64,000 bases of DNA, taken from contig CALWLS010000006.1 of assembly GCA_944381575.1 (NCBI GenBank), positions 62,001-126,000 on the forward strand, given 5' to 3'. Made by a program: the position numbers and the translations under genes. Origin of the DNA: an uncultured Lachnospiraceae bacterium (GTDB lineage Bacteria; Bacillota; Clostridia; Lachnospirales; Lachnospiraceae). This document shows positions 53,018 through 62,344 of the stretch, in pieces. Numbering within the stretch: the first letter of the stretch is position 1; every line of letters begins with the position of its first letter. The notes beneath the pieces were generated by a model. The model was not told the origin of the DNA, searched no databases, and saw nothing but the letters and a program-made list of their open reading frames with translations.

Positions 53018-53061
53018 AAAAGCCGGGTCTTGACAGTTATCTGTCGGGATCCGGCTTTTTT
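53018..53061 (+). terminator. Terminator of tRNA-Arg, inside the end of hicB
   Basis: AAAAGCCGG (53018-53026) pairs with CCGGCTTTT (53051-53059), with inner TGACAG/CTGTC, then T-run to 53061. On the minus strand the same DNA encodes the last HicB codons. Confidence 0.9.
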
Positions 53062-53423
53062 AATGCATATTCGGCGTCAGCTTTTGACAAAAGATATATG
53101 CAGTATTGATTCATACTTATATTTTCCTGTCTGGAATGTTCTGCAAGGCTTAAGTGCAGACTCTTTGGCATGCGCAGCTTAAATTGCCCGGAGTAATCAT
53201 TGATCCGCTTAGGTTCCGGTATCTCAATGCCTTCTTCAATGGCTGCCATGAGCCATTCTTTTTTTGCATCAAGAGCATTTTGTGCAGTGTCAGCAATATT
53301 CTCTCCGCAGGTAATGCAGCCTGGAAGTTCCGGAAATGAAGCAGTAAACCCGCCCTCAGAAAGATCCTCAATTATTTCCATTTTGTACGGGAGGTTCATA
53401 TAGTATTTAAGATCTTTTATCAT
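53037..53423 (-). CDS. hicB: HicB-type antitoxin
   Basis: Antitoxin of a type II HicAB system: binds HicA and represses the operon. The 128 residues have a partial RNase H-fold HicB domain (KMEIIEDLSEGGFTASFPEL, PGCITCGENIADTAQNALDA) and a C-terminal ribbon-helix-helix/Arc-like DNA-binding part (FKLRMPKSLHLSLAEHSRQE, NISMNQYCIYLLSK). GAGGAGGAG sets ATG 53423, overlapping hicA by 17 bp. The C-terminal DPDR is encoded by the loop side of the tRNA terminator. Confidence 0.92.
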   Translation of the reverse strand: MIKDLKYYMNLPYKMEIIEDLSEGGFTASFPELPGCITCGENIADTAQNALDAKKEWLMAAIEEGIEIPEPKRINDYSGQFKLRMPKSLHLSLAEHSRQENISMNQYCIYLLSKADAEYALKKPDPDR

Positions 53424-53661
53424 TTTGCTCCTCCTCTTCAATAATTTGTTTAATAAGCTCTATGTATACTCTCTTTATTGGTCTGTGTTTCGGTATGGTT
53501 ACGGGAAAGTGTCCGTCTTTACGGAATGTATAATGACTGTTTCCGCTGCCGGGCCTGGTAAGTTTATAACCATAATGATTCATTATTTTGGTTATTTCCT
53601 CGAATCTGATATCATTTGAGAGGGAATTGAATTTTGAAATTAATTTATCAAATTTTGACAT
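53407..53661 (-). CDS. hicA: HicA-type mRNA interferase toxin
   Basis: 84-residue double-stranded-RNA-binding-like toxin that cleaves mRNA, released when HicB is degraded. NHYGYKLTRPGSGNSHYTFRK contains the conserved active-site histidine (SHYTFR), and HFPVTIPKHRPIKRVYIELI follows. It precedes hicB on the minus strand, in the hicA-hicB order, with AAGGAG before ATG 53661. The pair is slightly AT-richer than the housekeeping genes. Confidence 0.9.
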   Translation of the reverse strand: MSKFDKLISKFNSLSNDIRFEEITKIMNHYGYKLTRPGSGNSHYTFRKDGHFPVTIPKHRPIKRVYIELIKQIIEEEEQNDKRS

Positions 53662-54088
53662 TATTTACTCCTTAATTATAAATGGTGTCATATATGGTGT
53701 CAATTACAAGAAATGAATAAGTTAGAATTATATATAGGGTGTTTCAGGAAAAGAGAAAAATAATAGAAATAAGAGTATAGAAAATGAAATAAGATTATAT
53801 TTCTATATTATAAACGGTTATTTATTAATTATTTCTTAAAAATGCATCGTAATATTTTCGTAAGAATTTGAAAAGTAAAAGTAATAGCTAAAATAGGAGA
53901 CAGCAAATATAATAGGCGACAGTAGGATAAAGCATAGCCTCTTAGCCACATCTTGTATGTGAAATCGATACAGTATACAAAAAAGTATTGATTTATAGCT
54001 CACAGAGTAGTAAACTATGCAACGTAATTATTATCATACTCGCGTAATGTATAGTTACACGGGTAAAGAAAAAGGAGAGTGCATTCAA
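53662..54088. promoter_or_regulatory. AT-rich intergenic region with promoter of the choline-binding-type surface gene
   Basis: TTGATT (53988-53993), 17-bp spacer and TAAACT (54011-54016) form the likely promoter. AAATCGATAC (53962-53971) and GTATTGATTT (53985-53994) form an inverted repeat overlapping the -35. A GTATAC lies in between. The rest is AT-rich and has no ORF or RNA I can recognise. Confidence 0.5.
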
Positions 54089-55540
54089 ATGAGAAAGCAG
54101 ACAAAATTAGCTGTTGGAGTTTCAGCAGCTGCTCTGTTAGCTATCGGTGCATCAATGACATCATTCGCAGAGACTCGTGGATGGGTTAACGAGGGTGATG
54201 CTTGGTACTACTACGATAACAGCGGAGACTATGTAACAGACAGATGGAAGAGCTACAATGGTAACTACTTCTACCTTGGCGATGAGGGTTACATGCTCAC
54301 AAACCAGCTCGTAGAGGATGGCGACAACTACTACTATGTAGATGCTAACGGTGCTATGGTTAGAAACACATGGGTAGCTATCGCAGCTGACGAGGACGAG
54401 GAAGAGGATGTAGATTACAGATGGTACTACTTCGGATCATCAGGTAAGGCTTACAAGGACTCAACAGGAAAGACCATCAACGGTAAGAAGTATGGCTTCG
54501 ATGAAGAGGGTAAGATGCTCTTCGGATTCGTAGATGCTAACGGTGCTTCAATCAATACCGAGGACGACGCAATCCTTAACTGCACATACTACTATGGGAC
54601 CAATGATGACGGAGCACGTCACTCAGGCTGGTTAAGGTATGAGGATGGTTTCGATACAACTGACTATGACGAGCTTGATTATGCATACTACTGGTTCAAC
54701 TTCGATTCAAACGGAAAGAAGAGAACAAGCATAACAAAGAAGATCAACGGTGAGTGGTACAACTTCGACGAGAACGGCGTTATGATCACAGAGTGGGCTG
54801 ACGGAGCTGCAACAGCTTCAGAGTCAAGGTACTTCAATGACAACCTTGAGAATGGTTCACTTGAGAAGAACGCTTGGATCTGGTCAGAGGCTTCAGAGGA
54901 CTGGGCAATCTATGAGGATGACTCAGATGAGCACTGGTTCAGAACTGATAACAAGGGTTACATCCTTACAGATCAGACAAAGAAGATCAACTCTAAGTGG
55001 TATGTATTCGATGAGTGGGGAATCATGCAGTATGGTCTTGTAGAGCTTGACCAGGCTAAGGTAAGCGGAGCACACCTCGTTCAGGCATTCAATGAGGATA
55101 ATGTTGAGGCTGAGGATCTTTATGCATTAAGCGGTAACTTCTTCTACTTCTCAGACAACGAGGAGACAGATGGAGCTATGAAGACAGGTTCTTCAATCAA
55201 GATCTCTCTTGCTGACGATGACTACACATTCGGATTCACAAAGACAACCGGTGAGGCATTCTGCGGCGTTGAGAACAACAAGGTATACAGAAATGGTATC
55301 CGTCAGGAAGCTGAGGATGACAAATACGCTGTAGTTCTCGGTGGTAAGGGTACAGAGGTTAACGAGTATCTTGTTAACTCAACAGGTACACGTATGAAGG
55401 CTCAGAAGTACTACAAGGACGACAACGATGAGTACTATGTAGTAATGAGCGGTTCTGACAAAGAAGGATACGACATCAGACACGTTGATACTCTTGAAAA
55501 GGCTAAGGCATTCGTTGCTGAAGCTAAGGATGCTGACTGA
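54089..55540 (+). CDS. Secreted choline-binding-type repeat protein (expressed copy)
   Basis: 483-residue exported protein. Signal peptide MRKQTKLAVGVSAAALLAIG ending near SFAE. The mature protein is mostly tandem aromatic repeats of the cell-wall-binding type (PF01473-like): AWYYYDNSGDYVTDRWKSYN, GNYFYLGDEGYMLTNQLV, NYYYVDANGAMVRNTWV, KKYGFDEEGKMLFGFV, EWYNFDENGVMITEW, KWYVFDEWGIMQYGLV. Such repeats bind choline or glucans. It is very acidic (DEDEEEDVD). A C-terminal part with KKYYKDDNDEYYVV repeats is less typical. AAGGAG and ATG 54089; an upstream frame to 54017 overlaps the promoter. A 5'-truncated, inverted second copy lies at 58108-59436. Confidence 0.92.
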   Translation: MRKQTKLAVGVSAAALLAIGASMTSFAETRGWVNEGDAWYYYDNSGDYVTDRWKSYNGNYFYLGDEGYMLTNQLVEDGDNYYYVDANGAMVRNTWVAIAADEDEEEDVDYRWYYFGSSGKAYKDSTGKTINGKKYGFDEEGKMLFGFVDANGASINTEDDAILNCTYYYGTNDDGARHSGWLRYEDGFDTTDYDELDYAYYWFNFDSNGKKRTSITKKINGEWYNFDENGVMITEWADGAATASESRYFNDNLENGSLEKNAWIWSEASEDWAIYEDDSDEHWFRTDNKGYILTDQTKKINSKWYVFDEWGIMQYGLVELDQAKVSGAHLVQAFNEDNVEAEDLYALSGNFFYFSDNEETDGAMKTGSSIKISLADDDYTFGFTKTTGEAFCGVENNKVYRNGIRQEAEDDKYAVVLGGKGTEVNEYLVNSTGTRMKAQKYYKDDNDEYYVVMSGSDKEGYDIRHVDTLEKAKAFVAEAKDAD

Positions 55541-55576
55541 TTAGTAGCATAAATATTCATAAAGAATGTTCTAACC

Positions 55577-55606
55577 AAAAGCGACTCGGGAAACCGGGTC
55601 GCTTTT
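55577..55606 (+). terminator. Terminator of the expressed surface gene
   Basis: AAAAGCGACTCGG (55577-55589), loop GAAA, CCGGGTCGCTTTT (55594-55606). The same stem, with two base changes, ends the inverted copy at 58051. Confidence 0.93.
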
Positions 55607-55870
55607 AATTATTCCGAATCTTATAAACTCTGAATATAGGGATATACCTCTGCAACATTGGTATCTTTCCACTGGGGAATATTTTATGCCAAAATTATAT
55701 AAAAATGCTCCCCAATGTTTAATGATAATCAAAACAATGGAGATATACAAAATACGTTTGATACTTTGAGCCCAAAAAATGGAGATTACTTGAAAATCGC
55801 CCTTATAAACCCTATAATAAAGACAAGAAAAGGCATCACCGATGACGGTTAGCCTTAGTATATTCAGTGT
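55607..55870. other. Noncoding stretch between surface gene and AAA gene
   Basis: AT-rich, no ORF of note. TGGGGA and TCCCCA (about 55673 and 55711) could form a weak stem with inner TTTTAT/ATAAAA. Nothing else recognised. Confidence 0.3.
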
Positions 55871-55912
55871 AAAAACACTAACCTACTTTAGCACGGGCGG
55901 TTAGTGTTTTTT
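55871..55912. terminator. Bidirectional terminator beside the AAA ATPase gene
   Basis: AAAAACACTAACC (55871-55883), 15-nt loop, GGTTAGTGTTTTT (55899-55911); 13 perfect pairs, with A- and T-runs on both sides. It ends the minus-strand ATPase gene. Confidence 0.9.
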
Positions 55913-55962
55913 ATTTGTGAATGTATATACAGCTAAATTATCATATGCTCAATAATAGTTTT

Positions 55963-57237
55963 TCAAAACAGTTCCACACGTCCAAGCAGCATATCTATCA
56001 GATTACAATGTAGGATTCCGTTATCATCGAAAAAATTATGTGGGATATCCATACGGATAACTATTTTTTTGAAAAAATCTTTTGTAAGCATTAATGATGC
56101 AAGCTCGGAAGATTCCTTTTTATCAGTATCCATTTTGAAAGCTGACTGGATATAAATTTTTCTGTCTGCATCATTTACAACAAAATCGATCTCTTTTTGC
56201 AAATTTGCTCCACCGGTACGATCAGTTACAACCCCAACATCAACAGAATATCCTCTAATTATCAATTCGTTATAAATGATATTTTCCATTATGTGTCCAG
56301 GATCATATTGACGATAATTAAGCCTTGCGTTACGAAGTCCAATATCTGTGTAATAATATTTGTTTGGATATTTGAAATATGTCTTTCCTTTTACATCGTA
56401 ACGTTTTGCCATGGATATGAGAAATGAATCAATAGCATACTGCACATAATTGGACACCAACGTGGAGTTTATCTTTTCCTTTCTCATGCCGGTCAATGCA
56501 TTGGAGATATTAGTAGGATTAGTCAGCGAACTGATTTGCGAGGCAAGGAAATCCAGAATTTCATTTAAAATATCCTCACGTTCTATCCCATTACGCTCCA
56601 CTATATCCTTTATATACAATTCACTGAATAATGACGAAAGATAATCTTTTTTATCCTTTACATCTGTTAATGCCAATATACGAGGCATGCCACCATACAG
56701 CATATATGTATCAAGAGCTTTTTGTTCATCTCCTCCGACATAGGAATAAAATTCCATAAAAGATAATGGATATACATGGATCTGAGTAGCGCGGCCGCGA
56801 AATTCTGTAGCAATATCTTTTGACAGTCCTTTTGAATTGCTGCCGGTAACATACACATCCAGATTTTTATATGCCTTAAGTTCATTCAGCATATCGTAAA
56901 TGGTAACTTCAATATTGCCATTTTCATTATCAATGACTTTTGTGGTAAGTTGAACTTCATCGATAAATAGATAAAATCTGTCACTATGATTCTTTGAAAC
57001 GATAGACTCAACATATTCACAAAGCTTAATAGGATCTCGAAATTTATAATAACGTCTCTGATCCAGCTCAATTTTAATTACGTGATCTGCCTGAACACCC
57101 TGTGAAAGAAGATAGTCATAAAATAAATCAAAAAGCAGTACTGACTTCCCACAACGGCGGATGCCAGTGATTACCTTAACCTCATCATTCCACATATTAT
57201 GGATAATTCTATTTAAGTAATAATCCCGTTTAATCAT
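55963..57237 (-). CDS. AAA-family ATPase with DUF4143 domain
   Basis: 424 residues: AAA_14 ATPase domain with Walker A GIRRCGKSVLL (about 25-35), Walker B FYLFIDEVQL, sensor VTGSNSKGLS, then DIATEFRGRATQIHVYPLSF, YMLYGGMPRIL and a C-terminal DUF4143-type winged-helix/nuclease-like part (YTDIGLRNARLNYRQYD, ENIIYNELIIRGYSVDVGV, QKEIDFVVNDADRKIYIQ with the E-IDFV-Q pattern of PD-(D/E)XK folds). Function is unknown; members are common in mobile regions. Base composition is AT-rich against the flanking housekeeping genes, so acquisition by transfer is likely. It lies between the two surface-gene copies. Confidence 0.85.
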   Translation of the reverse strand: MIKRDYYLNRIIHNMWNDEVKVITGIRRCGKSVLLFDLFYDYLLSQGVQADHVIKIELDQRRYYKFRDPIKLCEYVESIVSKNHSDRFYLFIDEVQLTTKVIDNENGNIEVTIYDMLNELKAYKNLDVYVTGSNSKGLSKDIATEFRGRATQIHVYPLSFMEFYSYVGGDEQKALDTYMLYGGMPRILALTDVKDKKDYLSSLFSELYIKDIVERNGIEREDILNEILDFLASQISSLTNPTNISNALTGMRKEKINSTLVSNYVQYAIDSFLISMAKRYDVKGKTYFKYPNKYYYTDIGLRNARLNYRQYDPGHIMENIIYNELIIRGYSVDVGVVTDRTGGANLQKEIDFVVNDADRKIYIQSAFKMDTDKKESSELASLMLTKDFFKKIVIRMDIPHNFFDDNGILHCNLIDMLLGRVELF

Positions 57238-57417
57238 ACCGCTTACCTTATACTTAAGACGTTTACGTCGTAACTTTCATGTATAGAATATCGTTCTTTT
57301 TATTAAATATCAATATTTTTTATAATGAATGATAATTTCAATTAAATAAAGTAACAGTAAATCGTGTATTATCCAATTAAAAATATTCTCCATATCATTT
57401 CAGTCAAGCATTTCGAT

Positions 57418-57454
57418 ATTTACCATTTTTACAAAAACCTTAAAAATGGTAAAT
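57418..57454. repeat. 13-bp perfect inverted repeat
   Basis: ATTTACCATTTTT (57418-57430), 11-nt loop, AAAAATGGTAAAT (57442-57454). It could be a terminator on either strand or a remnant repeat of a mobile element. Confidence 0.65.
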
Positions 57455-57502
57455 ATAGTATAATTAAATGATAGAGGCTAACTATAGTAGTTAAAAATCA
57501 TA

Positions 57503-57927
57503 ATGGCAGTAACTCTGGATATTTATGCTGTGTATGCAGATAATACTCGGCATAATAAAGAAATACAGAAGGCATTATGGCATGTGTAAAAAGGGCAAGG
57601 TATCATTCAATCCTTATATATGCAAGCTTACTTAAGAAGGGAAATGGTACAGAAAAGCTGACAGAACCTATATAATATTTTTTATCGAAGAATAATTATA
57701 AGATACTCGCGGATAGAACAGAGCATTTTAAGAAAGATATGTAAGGAGTAAGAAATATGAACAGCGTTGTTGATGAGATTAGGGAAGAAGGAAGGTTAGA
57801 GAGCAGCATTCAAGCAGCTAAAAGAATGCTTAAGCTTGGGAAATTAACATACGAGGATATCGCAACTTGTACGGATCTTCCATTAAGTGAAATAATTAAA
57901 CTTGCTCAAGAGAAAGACGCCAAATAA
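57503..57927 (+). pseudogene. Decayed PD-(D/E)XK nuclease family transposase-like gene
   Basis: Three remnants in order: AVTLDIYAVYADNTRHNKEI from 57503 (like the LDVYAEDxxGxxYNIEIQ core of Rpn/PDDEXK_2 proteins), stopped by TAA near 57582; then ILADRTEHFKKDM with an in-frame TAA where relatives read on; then an intact 56-codon ORF (57757-57927, ATG after AAGGAG) MNSVVDEIREEGRLESSIQA, KRMLKLGKLTYEDIATCT, the usual C-terminal tail of that family. The central catalytic part is missing, so it is inactive. The short ORF alone might still be translated. Confidence 0.65.
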
Positions 57928-58050
57928 TGAATAAATTTTAGAGCTACAAGTATGTATTGATAAAGTGTGTAAAATTTTTTCTATTTCAGCAGCTTGGCGA
58001 TATTTTATTTGTGGCAAAAACACTCTAAGGCGTCTATTAATAATTATTGT
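57928..58050. other. Short noncoding stretch
   Basis: AT-rich; no feature recognised before the terminator at 58051. Confidence 0.3.
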
Positions 58051-58080
58051 AAAAGCGACTCGGGAGACCGAGTCGCTTTT
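58051..58080 (-). terminator. Terminator of the inverted surface-gene copy
   Basis: AAAAGCGACTCGG (58051-58063), loop GAGA, CCGAGTCGCTTTT (58068-58080); 13 perfect pairs. Matches the terminator at 55577. Confidence 0.93.
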
Positions 58081-58107
58081 GATTATTAGATTATAATATG
58101 ACTGAAA

Positions 58108-59436
58108 TTACTTAGCGATAGAAACGCTTTCCTTCTCCTCCAGCGCATCCTTAGCAGCATCTAAGTCATCTACATGGATGATATCGTATCCCGTATCATC
58201 GTCACCGCTGAGAACTACATAATATTCATCATTGTCATCCTTGTAGTACCTGTCAGCCTTCATGCGTGTACCTGTTGAATTAACAAGGAACTCGGCATCT
58301 GATTCAACAAGGTTTCCACCATTATCATAAATGTCTATGACAACTATTTCATACTTATCATCATCAGCTTCCTGACGAATACCATTGAAGTATACCTTGT
58401 TGTTTTCAATTCCGCTGTATGCCCTACCAGTTGATTTATCAAATCCGAATGTATAGTCATCATCAGCAAGAGAGATCTTGATTGAAGAACCTGTCTTCAT
58501 TGCGCCGTCATTCTCCTCATCATCAGAGAAGTAGTAAACGTTAGCGTTATCAAGTGCATATATATCCTCTGCATCAACTTCATCTTCATCAAATGCCTGA
58601 ATCATATAAGCATTGCTGCCGTTTACCTTAGGAGTAGACAACTGTACAAGACCATACTGCATGATACCATTCTCATCGAATACATACCACTTAGAGTTGA
58701 TCTTCTTTGTCTGCTTTGTAAGGATCTGGCCCTTGTTGTCCGTTCTGAACCAGTGATCATCCTCATCATCAAGGCCCCAATCCTCATTAGCTGCGGTCCA
58801 AATCCAAGAATTCTTCTGGAGAGAACCATTCTCAAGGTTGGAATTATAGAACTTTGAGGTTGTTGACCATGTGGAACCTGCCCACTCAGTGATCATAACG
58901 CCGTTCTCATCGAAGTAGTAGCTATTGCCGTTAATCTTCTTTGGATTTGTAACATTGTTTGCTGTTCTCTTTACACCATTAGATCCGAAATTGAACCAAA
59001 AGTACTCATAATCAAGATCATCATAGTCGGTGGTATCGAAACCATCCTCATACCTTAACCAGCCTGAGTGACGTGCTCCGTCATCGTTGGTTCCGAAATA
59101 GTATGTGCAGTTAAGTACAGCGTCATCTTCGTTGTTCAGTAATGCACCATTCTCGTCTACGAATCCGAAGAGCATCTTACCCTCTTCATCGAAGCCGTAC
59201 TTCTTACCGTTGATGGTCTTTCCAAGAGAATCGGTGTATGCCTTACCTGATGATCCGAAGTAGTACCATCTGTAGTCTACATCCTCTTCCTCATCCTCGT
59301 CAGCTGCGATAGCTACCCATGTGTTCCTAACCATGGCGCCGTTAGCATCTACATAGTAGTAGTTGTTTCCGTCTTCTACGAGCTGGTTTGTGAGCATGTA
59401 ACCGATATATAAAACAACAAATGAAATTAAAGACAT
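58108..59436 (-). pseudogene. Inverted, 5'-truncated copy of the choline-binding-type surface gene (silent cassette?)
   Basis: 442-codon frame on the minus strand. From GYMLTNQLVEDG on, it aligns along its whole length with the expressed copy at 54089; about the first 90 residues differ at only a few places, and the C-terminal half diverges by substitutions and small insertions (for example GSTWSTTSKFY against GAATASESRYF). Signal peptide and first repeats are missing: the twelve residues before the match (MSLISFVVLYI) are unrelated, and no ribosome binding site is seen. The junction is abrupt at GGTTACATGCTCAC (about 59400). It keeps its own terminator. Likely not expressed as it stands, but the frame is fully open, which argues for use as a cassette. 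Confidence 0.85.
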
Positions 59437-59650
59437 TACGACAAAGTCGACGACATTAAGCCCAAAATCAACTGACAGATTTCGGTGAAAAAATAAGCTT
59501 CGGCAGAAAAATATTTAAACAAATTAAATAATTAAATTTTATAGTTTTTTACACCATTCATCCTGCACGAAAATATCTGCTAATATGAGTCTGAACGCCT
59601 TACCGGGAAGCACAAGGACCGTCAGAATTTAACTATAAAGGACATTAATT
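59437..59650. other. Intergenic region between silent copy and recombinase
   Basis: AT-rich. GTCGAC (59447-59452) within an ACGACAAAGTCGACGAC stretch lies near the 5' boundary of the copy. No clear promoter; AAAGGA (59636-59641) serves the recombinase. Confidence 0.4.
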
Positions 59651-60766
59651 ATGAAAAAAAGAAAAGACGGAAGATATGAAAAAAAGATCAGATATAACGG
59701 CAGGAGATATTCTGTTTATTCCAGCACCATCAAGGGACTTAATGAAAAAGAGGACGCCCTGAGGAGGCAGCTTGCAGCAGCGGAGCATAAGGAGTCGGCG
59801 GTCACCCTCGATGACTATTATGAAAAATGGAGTACTTCGCGCAAGAACACGGTGGCGGGAGCTACAGTAAGGCAGCAGTATTTCTTGTACAGGACCATGG
59901 CGGAGGTGACGGTAAGAAACGGAGTAAAGTTCGGTACACTGAGGCTGAATGAGATCGAGAGGAGAGATATACTGGAGTTGCAAAAGCGGCTGTACAGCAT
60001 CAGGCGCAGCGGTGGAAGGTTTGGCTACAGCACCATGACCGTCAATAACATGATAGCCATAGTGAGCCACATAATGTCCGACGCTGTGATGGAACGGCTT
60101 ATAAGCTGGAATCCGGCTAAGGGCGTGAAGCCCTTAAAAAAGACGGGGCCCATGGCAAGGGATACCATTCACAGGGCCTTAACGGTAGATGAAACAAAGG
60201 CGTTTTTTGCCGCTGCAAGGGGAGAATGGTATGAGCCGCTATTTGAATTCCTGCTCTTTACAGGCTGCCGCATAGGGGAGGCTTCAGCTATCAGATATTC
60301 AAATATCAATAATAAAAGCCTTACCATCAAAAATACGGTCTCAAGGGATGAGCACGGCATATATTATGTCAGCGATACGGCAAAAACGGCCGCGGGAGTG
60401 AGGACCATACCTATGACAGAGGATATGAGGATGGCTATCAGGGCTCAGAGATCGTTAAATAAGGAGGCCTTTGGAAGAGCTGAGGAAGGATATGTTTTCA
60501 GATCCAAAAGCGGAGGCATAGTAAGAGAGAGCGTGGTGAACAGAAATATAACTGCAATATGCTTAAGGGCTGGAATAGACAGGTTCACGGCCCACGCCTT
60601 CAGGGATACCTTTGCCACCAGGGCGCTGGAAAGCGGTATGAAGCCCAAGACCCTGCAGGAGATACTGGGGCATTCTGATATTGGCATGACCATGAATCTT
60701 TACGCCCATGTGATGGAAACGACAAAGGTAAAGGAGATGCGTATGATCAGGATCTCAATAACATAA
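59651..60766 (+). CDS. Tyrosine recombinase (phage-integrase family)
   Basis: 371-residue site-specific recombinase. N-terminal AP2-like arm-binding part (KRKDGRYEKKIRYNGRRYSV), SAM-like core-binding domain (DDYYEKWSTSRKNTVAGATV), and catalytic domain with Arg in TGCRIGEASA, Lys in TAKTAAGVRTIPM, HxxR in AHAFRDTFATR, His in LGHSDIGMT and the nucleophile Tyr in NLYAHV. All catalytic residues are present, so it should be active. No excisionase, phage or conjugation gene adjoins it. It faces away from the silent surface-gene copy, 214 bp away, and may act on it. Confidence 0.94.
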   Translation: MKKRKDGRYEKKIRYNGRRYSVYSSTIKGLNEKEDALRRQLAAAEHKESAVTLDDYYEKWSTSRKNTVAGATVRQQYFLYRTMAEVTVRNGVKFGTLRLNEIERRDILELQKRLYSIRRSGGRFGYSTMTVNNMIAIVSHIMSDAVMERLISWNPAKGVKPLKKTGPMARDTIHRALTVDETKAFFAAARGEWYEPLFEFLLFTGCRIGEASAIRYSNINNKSLTIKNTVSRDEHGIYYVSDTAKTAAGVRTIPMTEDMRMAIRAQRSLNKEAFGRAEEGYVFRSKSGGIVRESVVNRNITAICLRAGIDRFTAHAFRDTFATRALESGMKPKTLQEILGHSDIGMTMNLYAHVMETTKVKEMRMIRISIT

Positions 60767-60892
60767 ACCTGGAAATCGGATAAATGTGTGAATTTCAGCC
60801 CATATCCAAATGCGGGACAGGATCAGGATGCGTTGACGACAGCGCTGACGACATTTATAAAAGCCATATGTATTTGTTCATAATAATGTAAT

Positions 60893-61039: not shown

Positions 61040-62344
61040 ATGAAAAAAAGATCAGTATTTTCATTAATCCTTCTGACATTCATGGCGGCGATATCCATCA
61101 CCTCCTTTGCCTACTATACCAAGACAAGAGGGATTCCGAATGTAAGGATAACTATTGATACGGGGGCGCTGGAGCCTGGAGATGATCTATCTGACGACGC
61201 TGAGGCCTATGTAAGTGTGCCGGAGAGCAACATATATTACGAACTGGACGACGCGGAATGGATAGATGACATTACCGAGCTCAAGGTGGGGGATGCTCCG
61301 CGTATGAGAGTATGGCTCTATGCGATACCAAGAGAGGTCGAGAGCAAGAATTACAGTACGATATATCTGTTTAACGGAAGCTACAGCCCGAGTAATGTAA
61401 GAGTTAACGGCGGAGAGCTTATATCTGCTGATAAAAGAGATTCGGGCTATGCGCTTATGGTCACGCTTAGGGTCGATCCGGTAGAGGGAACCTTCTCGGA
61501 TCCGATATCCGCCAACTGGTCGTCTCCGATAGGCAAGGCTACCTGGGATGTAGATTATAATGACTCGGGGTATTATGATGTGACCTGCTACAGGGGATCA
61601 AAGGTGGTCAAGAGACTTTATGATTACCATGGTAATTACTATAATTTCTACCCGTATATGACTGAGCCGGGAGAGTACTCGTTCAGGATAAGGACAGTTG
61701 CTAAGCCTGGAGTGTCCGGAGGCAAGGCTTCCGGTTGGACTGAGTCGTCGATACTCACGGTAAATGCCGACAAGGTATCAAATGGAAGCGGACAGACCAC
61801 CGCAGATGAGCACGGCGGATCCTCAGCAACTTCCGGGACCGTCAGCAGCATAAACGGACAGAATCTCGGAACCCAGTATGGCTGGATCACTTCGGGAAGC
61901 GACAGATATTTCCGCTATCCGGACGGACAGCTTGCAACGGGCTGGCTCAACTTAAACGGGGTGTATTACAGATTTGACGCCACTGGCAAGATGCTCAAAG
62001 GATGGCAGAAGAATGACTACGGCAGCTGGTTCTACCTTGATCCTAATACCGGAGCCATGAAGACAGGCTGGTTCAATGATAACGGCAGCTATTATTATCT
62101 CCGCACTGATAAGGGTGATTATGAGGGCGTGATGGTGACCGGCTGGGCCGATATTGGAGGCAAGAGATATTATTTCAATGAGAGTGGAATGATGGTGACC
62201 GGCTGGAGAGGCATCGATGGAAAGTATTATTATTTCTATCCGCAGGGCAGCGCCACGGCTGACGGAAGCTATGGCTATATGGCTGTAAATACCACGATAG
62301 ACGGGGTGTTCGCTGTTGGAGCGGATGGAGCCTGGATCCACTGA
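61040..62344 (+). CDS. Secreted protein with C-terminal choline-binding-type repeats
   Basis: 434 residues: signal peptide ([20 protein letters not shown]), an N-terminal beta-rich module (about 30-245) of unknown type, in two parts ([20 protein letters not shown], then [20 protein letters not shown]), a Ser/Gly/Thr linker, and at the end at least five cell-wall-binding repeats: [79 protein letters not shown]. The pattern is a standard surface-anchored effector. ATG 61040 is preferred over GTG 61028. Followed 20 bp later by pgi. Confidence 0.9.

Follow-up and report, generated by a model that had tools for sequence, protein, structure and literature searches.

In Mycoplasma pulmonis a silent gene provides the 3' end that is attached to the promoter, ribosome site and 5' coding part of a vsa gene, and a tyrosine recombinase gene lies nearby (PMC2268961, as far as the excerpted text goes). 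Lactobacillus acidophilus carries its expressed and silent S-layer genes, slpA and slpB, on a 6-kb segment in which the silent gene has no promoter (excerpted text of PMC6015585), and the inversion of this segment is known here from the title of Boot 1996 as cited in that article. In Clostridioides difficile the cell-wall protein CwpV is switched by DNA inversion through the tyrosine recombinase RecV (excerpted text of PMC2784873). Here we describe a locus from an uncultured Lachnospiraceae bacterium, at positions 54,089 to 60,766 of a 64,000-nucleotide stretch (the window) of contig CALWLS010000006.1, in which a putative surface-protein gene is accompanied by an inverted, apparently silent partial copy and an intact tyrosine recombinase gene. 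None of the published titles found in literature searches describes this locus.

By likeness of sequence layout the locus would work in the manner of M. pulmonis vsa and L. acidophilus slp. As with vsa and its recombinase HvsR, a fixed 5' part would be combined with a silent 3' end and a tyrosine recombinase lies in the vicinity. Unlike vsa, which is a mollicute gene family, the window has one silent copy, another type of protein and an integrase-type enzyme, and inversion is proposed here from sequence. With slpA/slpB the locus shares a promoter-bearing gene and a promoterless silent partner, although those genes belong to a different protein family and no adjacent recombinase is named in the excerpted text of PMC6015585. 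The cwpV system, so far as its description was available, is more distant, being an on/off switch of 195 bp upstream of its gene, whereas in the window the ends of the protein would be swapped; recV lies elsewhere in the C. difficile genome and the window recombinase is adjacent. The locus also fits the general class of gene-altering programmed inversions, in which, as Milman, Yelin and Kishony are said to have described in 2023, a recombinase lies close to a gene and to an inverted, partial copy of it.

The assignment to a class of recombination systems that combine an expression site with silent cassettes is well supported by comparative sequence evidence, because such copies recur in the genus, their start points coincide, recombinases are enriched beside them and their codons appear to have been under selection. 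For the window itself we favour, with modest confidence, inversion of a silent cassette into the expression site by the adjacent tyrosine recombinase; both the inversion event and the role of this enzyme as its performer are inferred. According to this model the part ending at 54286, which comprises the promoter region, the ribosome site and 66 codons, those of the signal peptide among them, would remain in place, and recombination between 29-bp blocks at 54287 and 59403 would invert about 5.1 kb. The silent 3' part would thereby be placed in frame after the fixed 5' part and the previous 3' part would become silent, with the adjacent tyrosine recombinase as the most likely catalyst. As a result, a surface protein with strong codon adaptation would exist in two alternative versions. 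The features concerned are as follows.

53989..54017 (+): promoter-like element, TTGATT (53989-53994), 17 nucleotides (nt), TAAACT (54012-54017); by eye, from likeness to relatives
54070..54079 (+): putative ribosome binding site AAAAGGAGAG of the expressed copy; by eye
54089-55540 (+): expressed copy, complete gene for a 483-residue choline-binding-repeat protein (Pfam PF19127/PF19085)
54089-54169 (+): signal peptide MRKQTKLAVGVSAAALLAIGASMTSFA of the expressed copy; by eye
54287..54315 (+): candidate crossover block in the expressed copy, 29 nt from codon 67 onward, identical to the silent copy
55577..55613 (+): terminator-like hairpin 3' of the expressed copy; by eye
58051..58087 (-): terminator-like hairpin after the silent copy; by eye
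58108-59403 (-): putative silent copy of 431 codons, with homology to the expressed copy starting at residue 67 of the latter; the mechanical open reading frame extends to 59436
59375..59403 (-): candidate crossover block in the silent copy, 29 nt, identical to the expressed copy
59404..59650: unique sequence separating the silent copy from the recombinase; one 32-nt match only (E 0.046) when compared with the loci of other genomes
59651-60766 (+): intact tyrosine recombinase, 371 residues, PF00589; closest solved sequence 6emy 'Int protein'

The two copies and the adjacent recombinase

The expressed copy has PF19127 repeats and, by eye, a signal peptide, as expected of a choline-binding-repeat surface protein, and a surface role of its product is predicted on that basis. 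A previous sequence-only reading had given this copy a promoter, a ribosome binding site and a signal peptide. The last two are indeed apparent by eye; the promoter is recognised by likeness to relatives, the 276 nt that contain the element being 81% identical to the expressed copy of genome G023, and was missing from the output of a consensus promoter scan (22 sites against 22.5 expected, no excess over shuffles).

The partner copy has an open frame and is without the promoter region, ribosome site and signal peptide of the expressed copy (the latter two judged by eye). The consensus scan listed no promoter-like site on its strand from 58353 to 60800, and the copy is presumably silent. Its homology begins abruptly at GGTTACATGCTCAC, from 59403 inward and in inverted orientation, much as the sequence-only reading had described it; the three 10-nt bins upstream match at only 3 of 10 positions apiece. 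The two start points agree in phase, since 54287 is the first base of codon 67 and 58108-59403 comprises 432 codons including the stop. Identity between the arms 54287-54727 and 58963-59403 reaches 88% over 441 nt (386/441), far beyond chance. The first 270 bp had been called nearly identical, which overstates the case, since exact identity covers the first 29 nt and 243 of the 270 positions overall, and similarity then falls patchily (longest exact run 53 nt). Homology had also been said to run to the terminator; the two hairpins, recognised by eye, are 92% identical, and the promoter and terminator scan listed neither. In sum, 29-nt blocks shared in inverted orientation at 54287 and 59403 accompany one copy with a promoter, recognised by likeness, and one, putatively silent, without promoter and 5' end, as in a vsa-type system.

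A search of the window genome, an assembly of 18 contigs, gave only two strong copies and no close 5' fragment of the surface gene elsewhere. No viral contig matched a 23-mer or the protein. Palindromic recombinase cores were sought in the 29-nt block of the window, and only weak candidates were found.

The recombinase is complete, as had been noted, and as in other PF00589 tyrosine recombinases its catalytic R, K, HxxR, H and Y residues align with those of the 6emy 'Int protein', which we take to be the Tn1549 integrase. It begins 214 bp beyond the silent copy, as previously stated, if measured from the open frame, and 247 bp beyond it if measured from the start of homology.

Silent copies and recombinases across the genus

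Comparison with relatives extends these findings: silent copies with abrupt start points recur in six other genomes. Matches to the surface protein at 0.001 are present in all 25 genus genomes, many of them in the repeats only, with 35 places scoring at least 100 bits. None of 16 genomes from other families has a match, and in a sample of the order with a cut-off of 1e-15 there are matches in 3 of 246 genomes, two of which belong to a sister genus, the third being the window genome itself. The two named relatives of the genus are Lachnospiraceae metagenome assemblies, one of them from goat rumen. By eye, 11 genomes (G000, G001, G002, G005, G006, G011, G013, G014, G020, G022 and G023) have a copy with GGAGAGTGC and a promoter region of related sequence before it, with variants such as TTGCTT in G011 and a differing -10 in G013 and G022. 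The G019 copy is cut too close to judge, and others are without the element. Seven of the 11 also hold copies without that promoter, ten altogether (three in G022, two in G006 and one each in G000, G005, G013, G020 and G023). We call these copies silent in the sense that they are without that promoter, since other promoters are possible and purine stretches in G013 and in one G022 copy might serve as weak ribosome sites. Because relatives carry comparable silent copies, the window copy is not an isolated duplication. Convergent inverted pairs occur in G005, G006 and G022. In G022 a look-alike two-gene pair (by eye; L048 9013-10369 and 15942-17250) follows the expressed copy and recurs before a silent copy, which suggests a past rearrangement.

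The start points of the silent copies coincide exactly or within 4 nt in two pairs of species, and outside them similarity drops immediately except in G013 and G023. Those of G005 and of one G006 copy (C3) fall on the same base, at ATAAA in the promoter spacer, and that of the other silent G006 copy (C5) lies 4 nt further in. Starting within the spacer, these three of the ten copies therefore lose only the -35 and keep the -10 and the ribosome site. By eye, the promoter-spacer block holds an inverted repeat, TTACT-TATCGGT-AGTAA, like a recombinase core. G013 and G022 share a start point at TTATG, and the remaining start points lie in the coding region, near codon 52 in G023, at codon 67 in the window and near codon 112 in G020. 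The G022 expressed copy has 199 and 129 exact nt in common with two of its silent copies, after which identity falls to about 65%; the block of the third has diverged.

Recombinase proximity was assessed for 36 surface-gene copies, comprising the 35 places above and one G023 copy (C13; 62 bits) cut by a contig end, using 116 of the 120 PF00589 matches of the genus after four below the cut-off were dropped. A recombinase lies within 3 kb of nine of the 36 copies against 0.76 expected (P = 1.2e-7 under a Poisson model that ignores gene clustering). Proximity is concentrated at the silent copies, with 7/10 against 2/26 of the others (Fisher 0.0004, post hoc). Two copies share one recombinase, so the distinct near-copy recombinases number eight, in seven genomes and all of PF00589. 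Two of them, in G006 and G014, form family I (74% identity); family II comprises one enzyme in G013 and two in G022 (46-53%), with that of G020 at about 30%; and the remaining two, of the window and G023, are 37% identical to each other. Both members of family I (at least 74%) adjoin copies, as do the four genus sequences that match family II best; these counts include the queries, themselves chosen for position. Families I and II thus look dedicated to the surface gene. The stretches fetched beside the nearest relatives of the window enzyme hold no copy, and the case for a dedicated recombinase is good for these two families and weaker for the window.

It is quite possible, though we put it forward tentatively, that within this genus at least three only distantly related families of tyrosine recombinase independently captured one surface gene, each at its own site in the promoter spacer, at the start codon or in the coding region. 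Independent captures would mean that a constant gene has acquired its switch more than once, and if several recombinases do act on different points of one gene, the locus would illustrate the repeated origin of such switches. The switching systems found in print are mostly from pathogens, and a genus with a goat-rumen member offers a chance to ask what else drives variation, be it phage, neighbours or host.

Alternatives to the proposed inversion by the adjacent enzyme

A body of observations weighs against inversion by the adjacent enzyme, and part of it concerns sites and linkage. The window start point is common to no relative and its crossover block is exact over 29 nt only, so the crossover region is not near-identical as the sequence-only reading had it, although the expression-site and silent-cassette part of that reading stands, given the ten silent copies in seven genomes, the recombinase enrichment and the codon selection. 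Similarity does not stop sharply in G013 and G023 but tapers off within about 10 nt (7/10 matches), and the G023 enzyme, 37% identical to that of the window, accompanies a start point at codon 52 and is turned the opposite way. For three of the ten silent copies the contig shows no recombinase within 3 kb, one of these copies sitting 216 nt from a contig end, and G005 has no close family I enzyme. One G022 silent copy lies in direct orientation to the expressed copy, and simple inversion therefore cannot swap it. Linkage of expressed and silent copies is not established for G013, G020, G023 and the C3 copy of G006. A contig end inside the gene cuts five of the 11 promoter-bearing copies. In favour of switching, two G013 contigs, one with the expressed and one with the silent 5' end, stop on one 55-mer in the manner of an assembly-graph branch; against it, this 55-mer occurs only in the two known contigs and no third continues it, so that several joins are only suggested. 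Contig-end searches in G023 and G020 returned known copies only. The contig of the second G006 copy ends 216 nt upstream of the start codon within a short frame (L038 9957-10156), possibly the last part of a different gene.

Exchange under the same expression-site logic could instead proceed by general homologous recombination or gene conversion over the whole 1.2-kb homology, with the recombinase as a bystander. The window homology does span the whole gene, and its near-identical stretches are patchy, the longest of them the 53-nt run mentioned above. In two close genomes of the sister genus, with flanks 93-99% identical, one gene of this kind is conserved at 98-100% over its first 200 nt, and most of its remainder differs together with an adjacent polysaccharide-type cluster. 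With the recombinases of this genus as tblastn queries, no relative was found in 108 and 92 kb of these two genomes, and the 3' part is therefore exchangeable without such an enzyme close by. A nearest-neighbour test found heads and tails of the gene closest within their own genome equally often (13/25 each). Homologous recombination would not, however, predict start points common to different species, nor the enrichment of recombinases beside silent copies, and we consider it rather unlikely as the explanation for the window.

It is also formally possible that the inverted copy is a static duplicate without its 5' end, perhaps left by insertion and decay of an integrase-bearing element, and that no switching takes place. 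The window enzyme is of the mobile-element integrase type. Its closest relatives in the genus (51% and 46%, in G005 and G010) have no surface-gene copy in the stretches fetched, and some of its relatives lie among mobile-element-like genes (by eye); repeats near six of them gave no general pattern. Around the locus itself the recombinase alone, among eight proteins scanned, is of a mobility kind, and no convincing flanking direct repeat of at least 18 nt was found between 52 and 64 kb, a larger or decayed element not having been sought. A gene-splitting element would leave the 5' part at its far end, and the genome holds no close fragment of that sort. Comparable silent copies in six other genomes likewise speak against a static duplicate.

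Codon usage also bears on this last alternative. Among the 49 window open reading frames of at least 150 residues the expressed copy ranks first in codon adaptation and the silent copy second. The frame of the latter is open over 431 codons, and the ratio of nonsynonymous to synonymous substitution rates is 0.18 for the window pair against 0.25 for pairs of expressed copies. In simulations of neutral synonymous drift, which covered seven of the ten silent copies (those of G013, G020 and G023 were left out, a contig end truncating at least one member of each pair), six, the window's included, exceed all 200 runs under both branch models. Codon adaptation of the window silent copy is 0.72 against neutral maxima of 0.58 and 0.69. 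Against this, the fourth G022 copy (47407) exceeds the neutral runs under one of the two branch models only, and the codon bias of the window silent copy is partly relaxed (effective number of codons 43.2 against 32.0 in the expressed copy), so that its use, if any, would be rare or past. Gene conversion could alternatively keep codon bias high in a silent copy. On balance we regard a static duplicate as improbable. Inversion by the adjacent enzyme thus appears likeliest for the window, followed by homologous recombination and then by a static copy. Codon bias in promoterless copies also offers a means of recognising past use when only one assembly is at hand.

Neighbouring genes

One further gene lies inside the segment that would be inverted.

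55963..57237 (-): AAA_14/DUF4143 ATPase (Pfam)

This ATPase was set aside as a part of the system because the window genome has 12 DUF4143 matches, and it is probably a bystander. By eye, the G005 pair also flanks an ATPase that resembles it. The short open frame at 57757-57930 (+) looks by eye like the end of an Rpn/PD-(D/E)XK-type protein, and Pfam gave no family for it. A HicA/HicB-type toxin-antitoxin pair lies just upstream of the expressed surface gene (53037-53661, -). Just past the recombinase, 61040-62344 (+) encodes another choline-binding-repeat protein, and several relatives have similar genes upstream of their expressed copy. Some surface-gene copies lie, by eye, beside genes of sugar-nucleotide or polysaccharide type (L039 4980-7229; L051 621-2772; L123 and L125).

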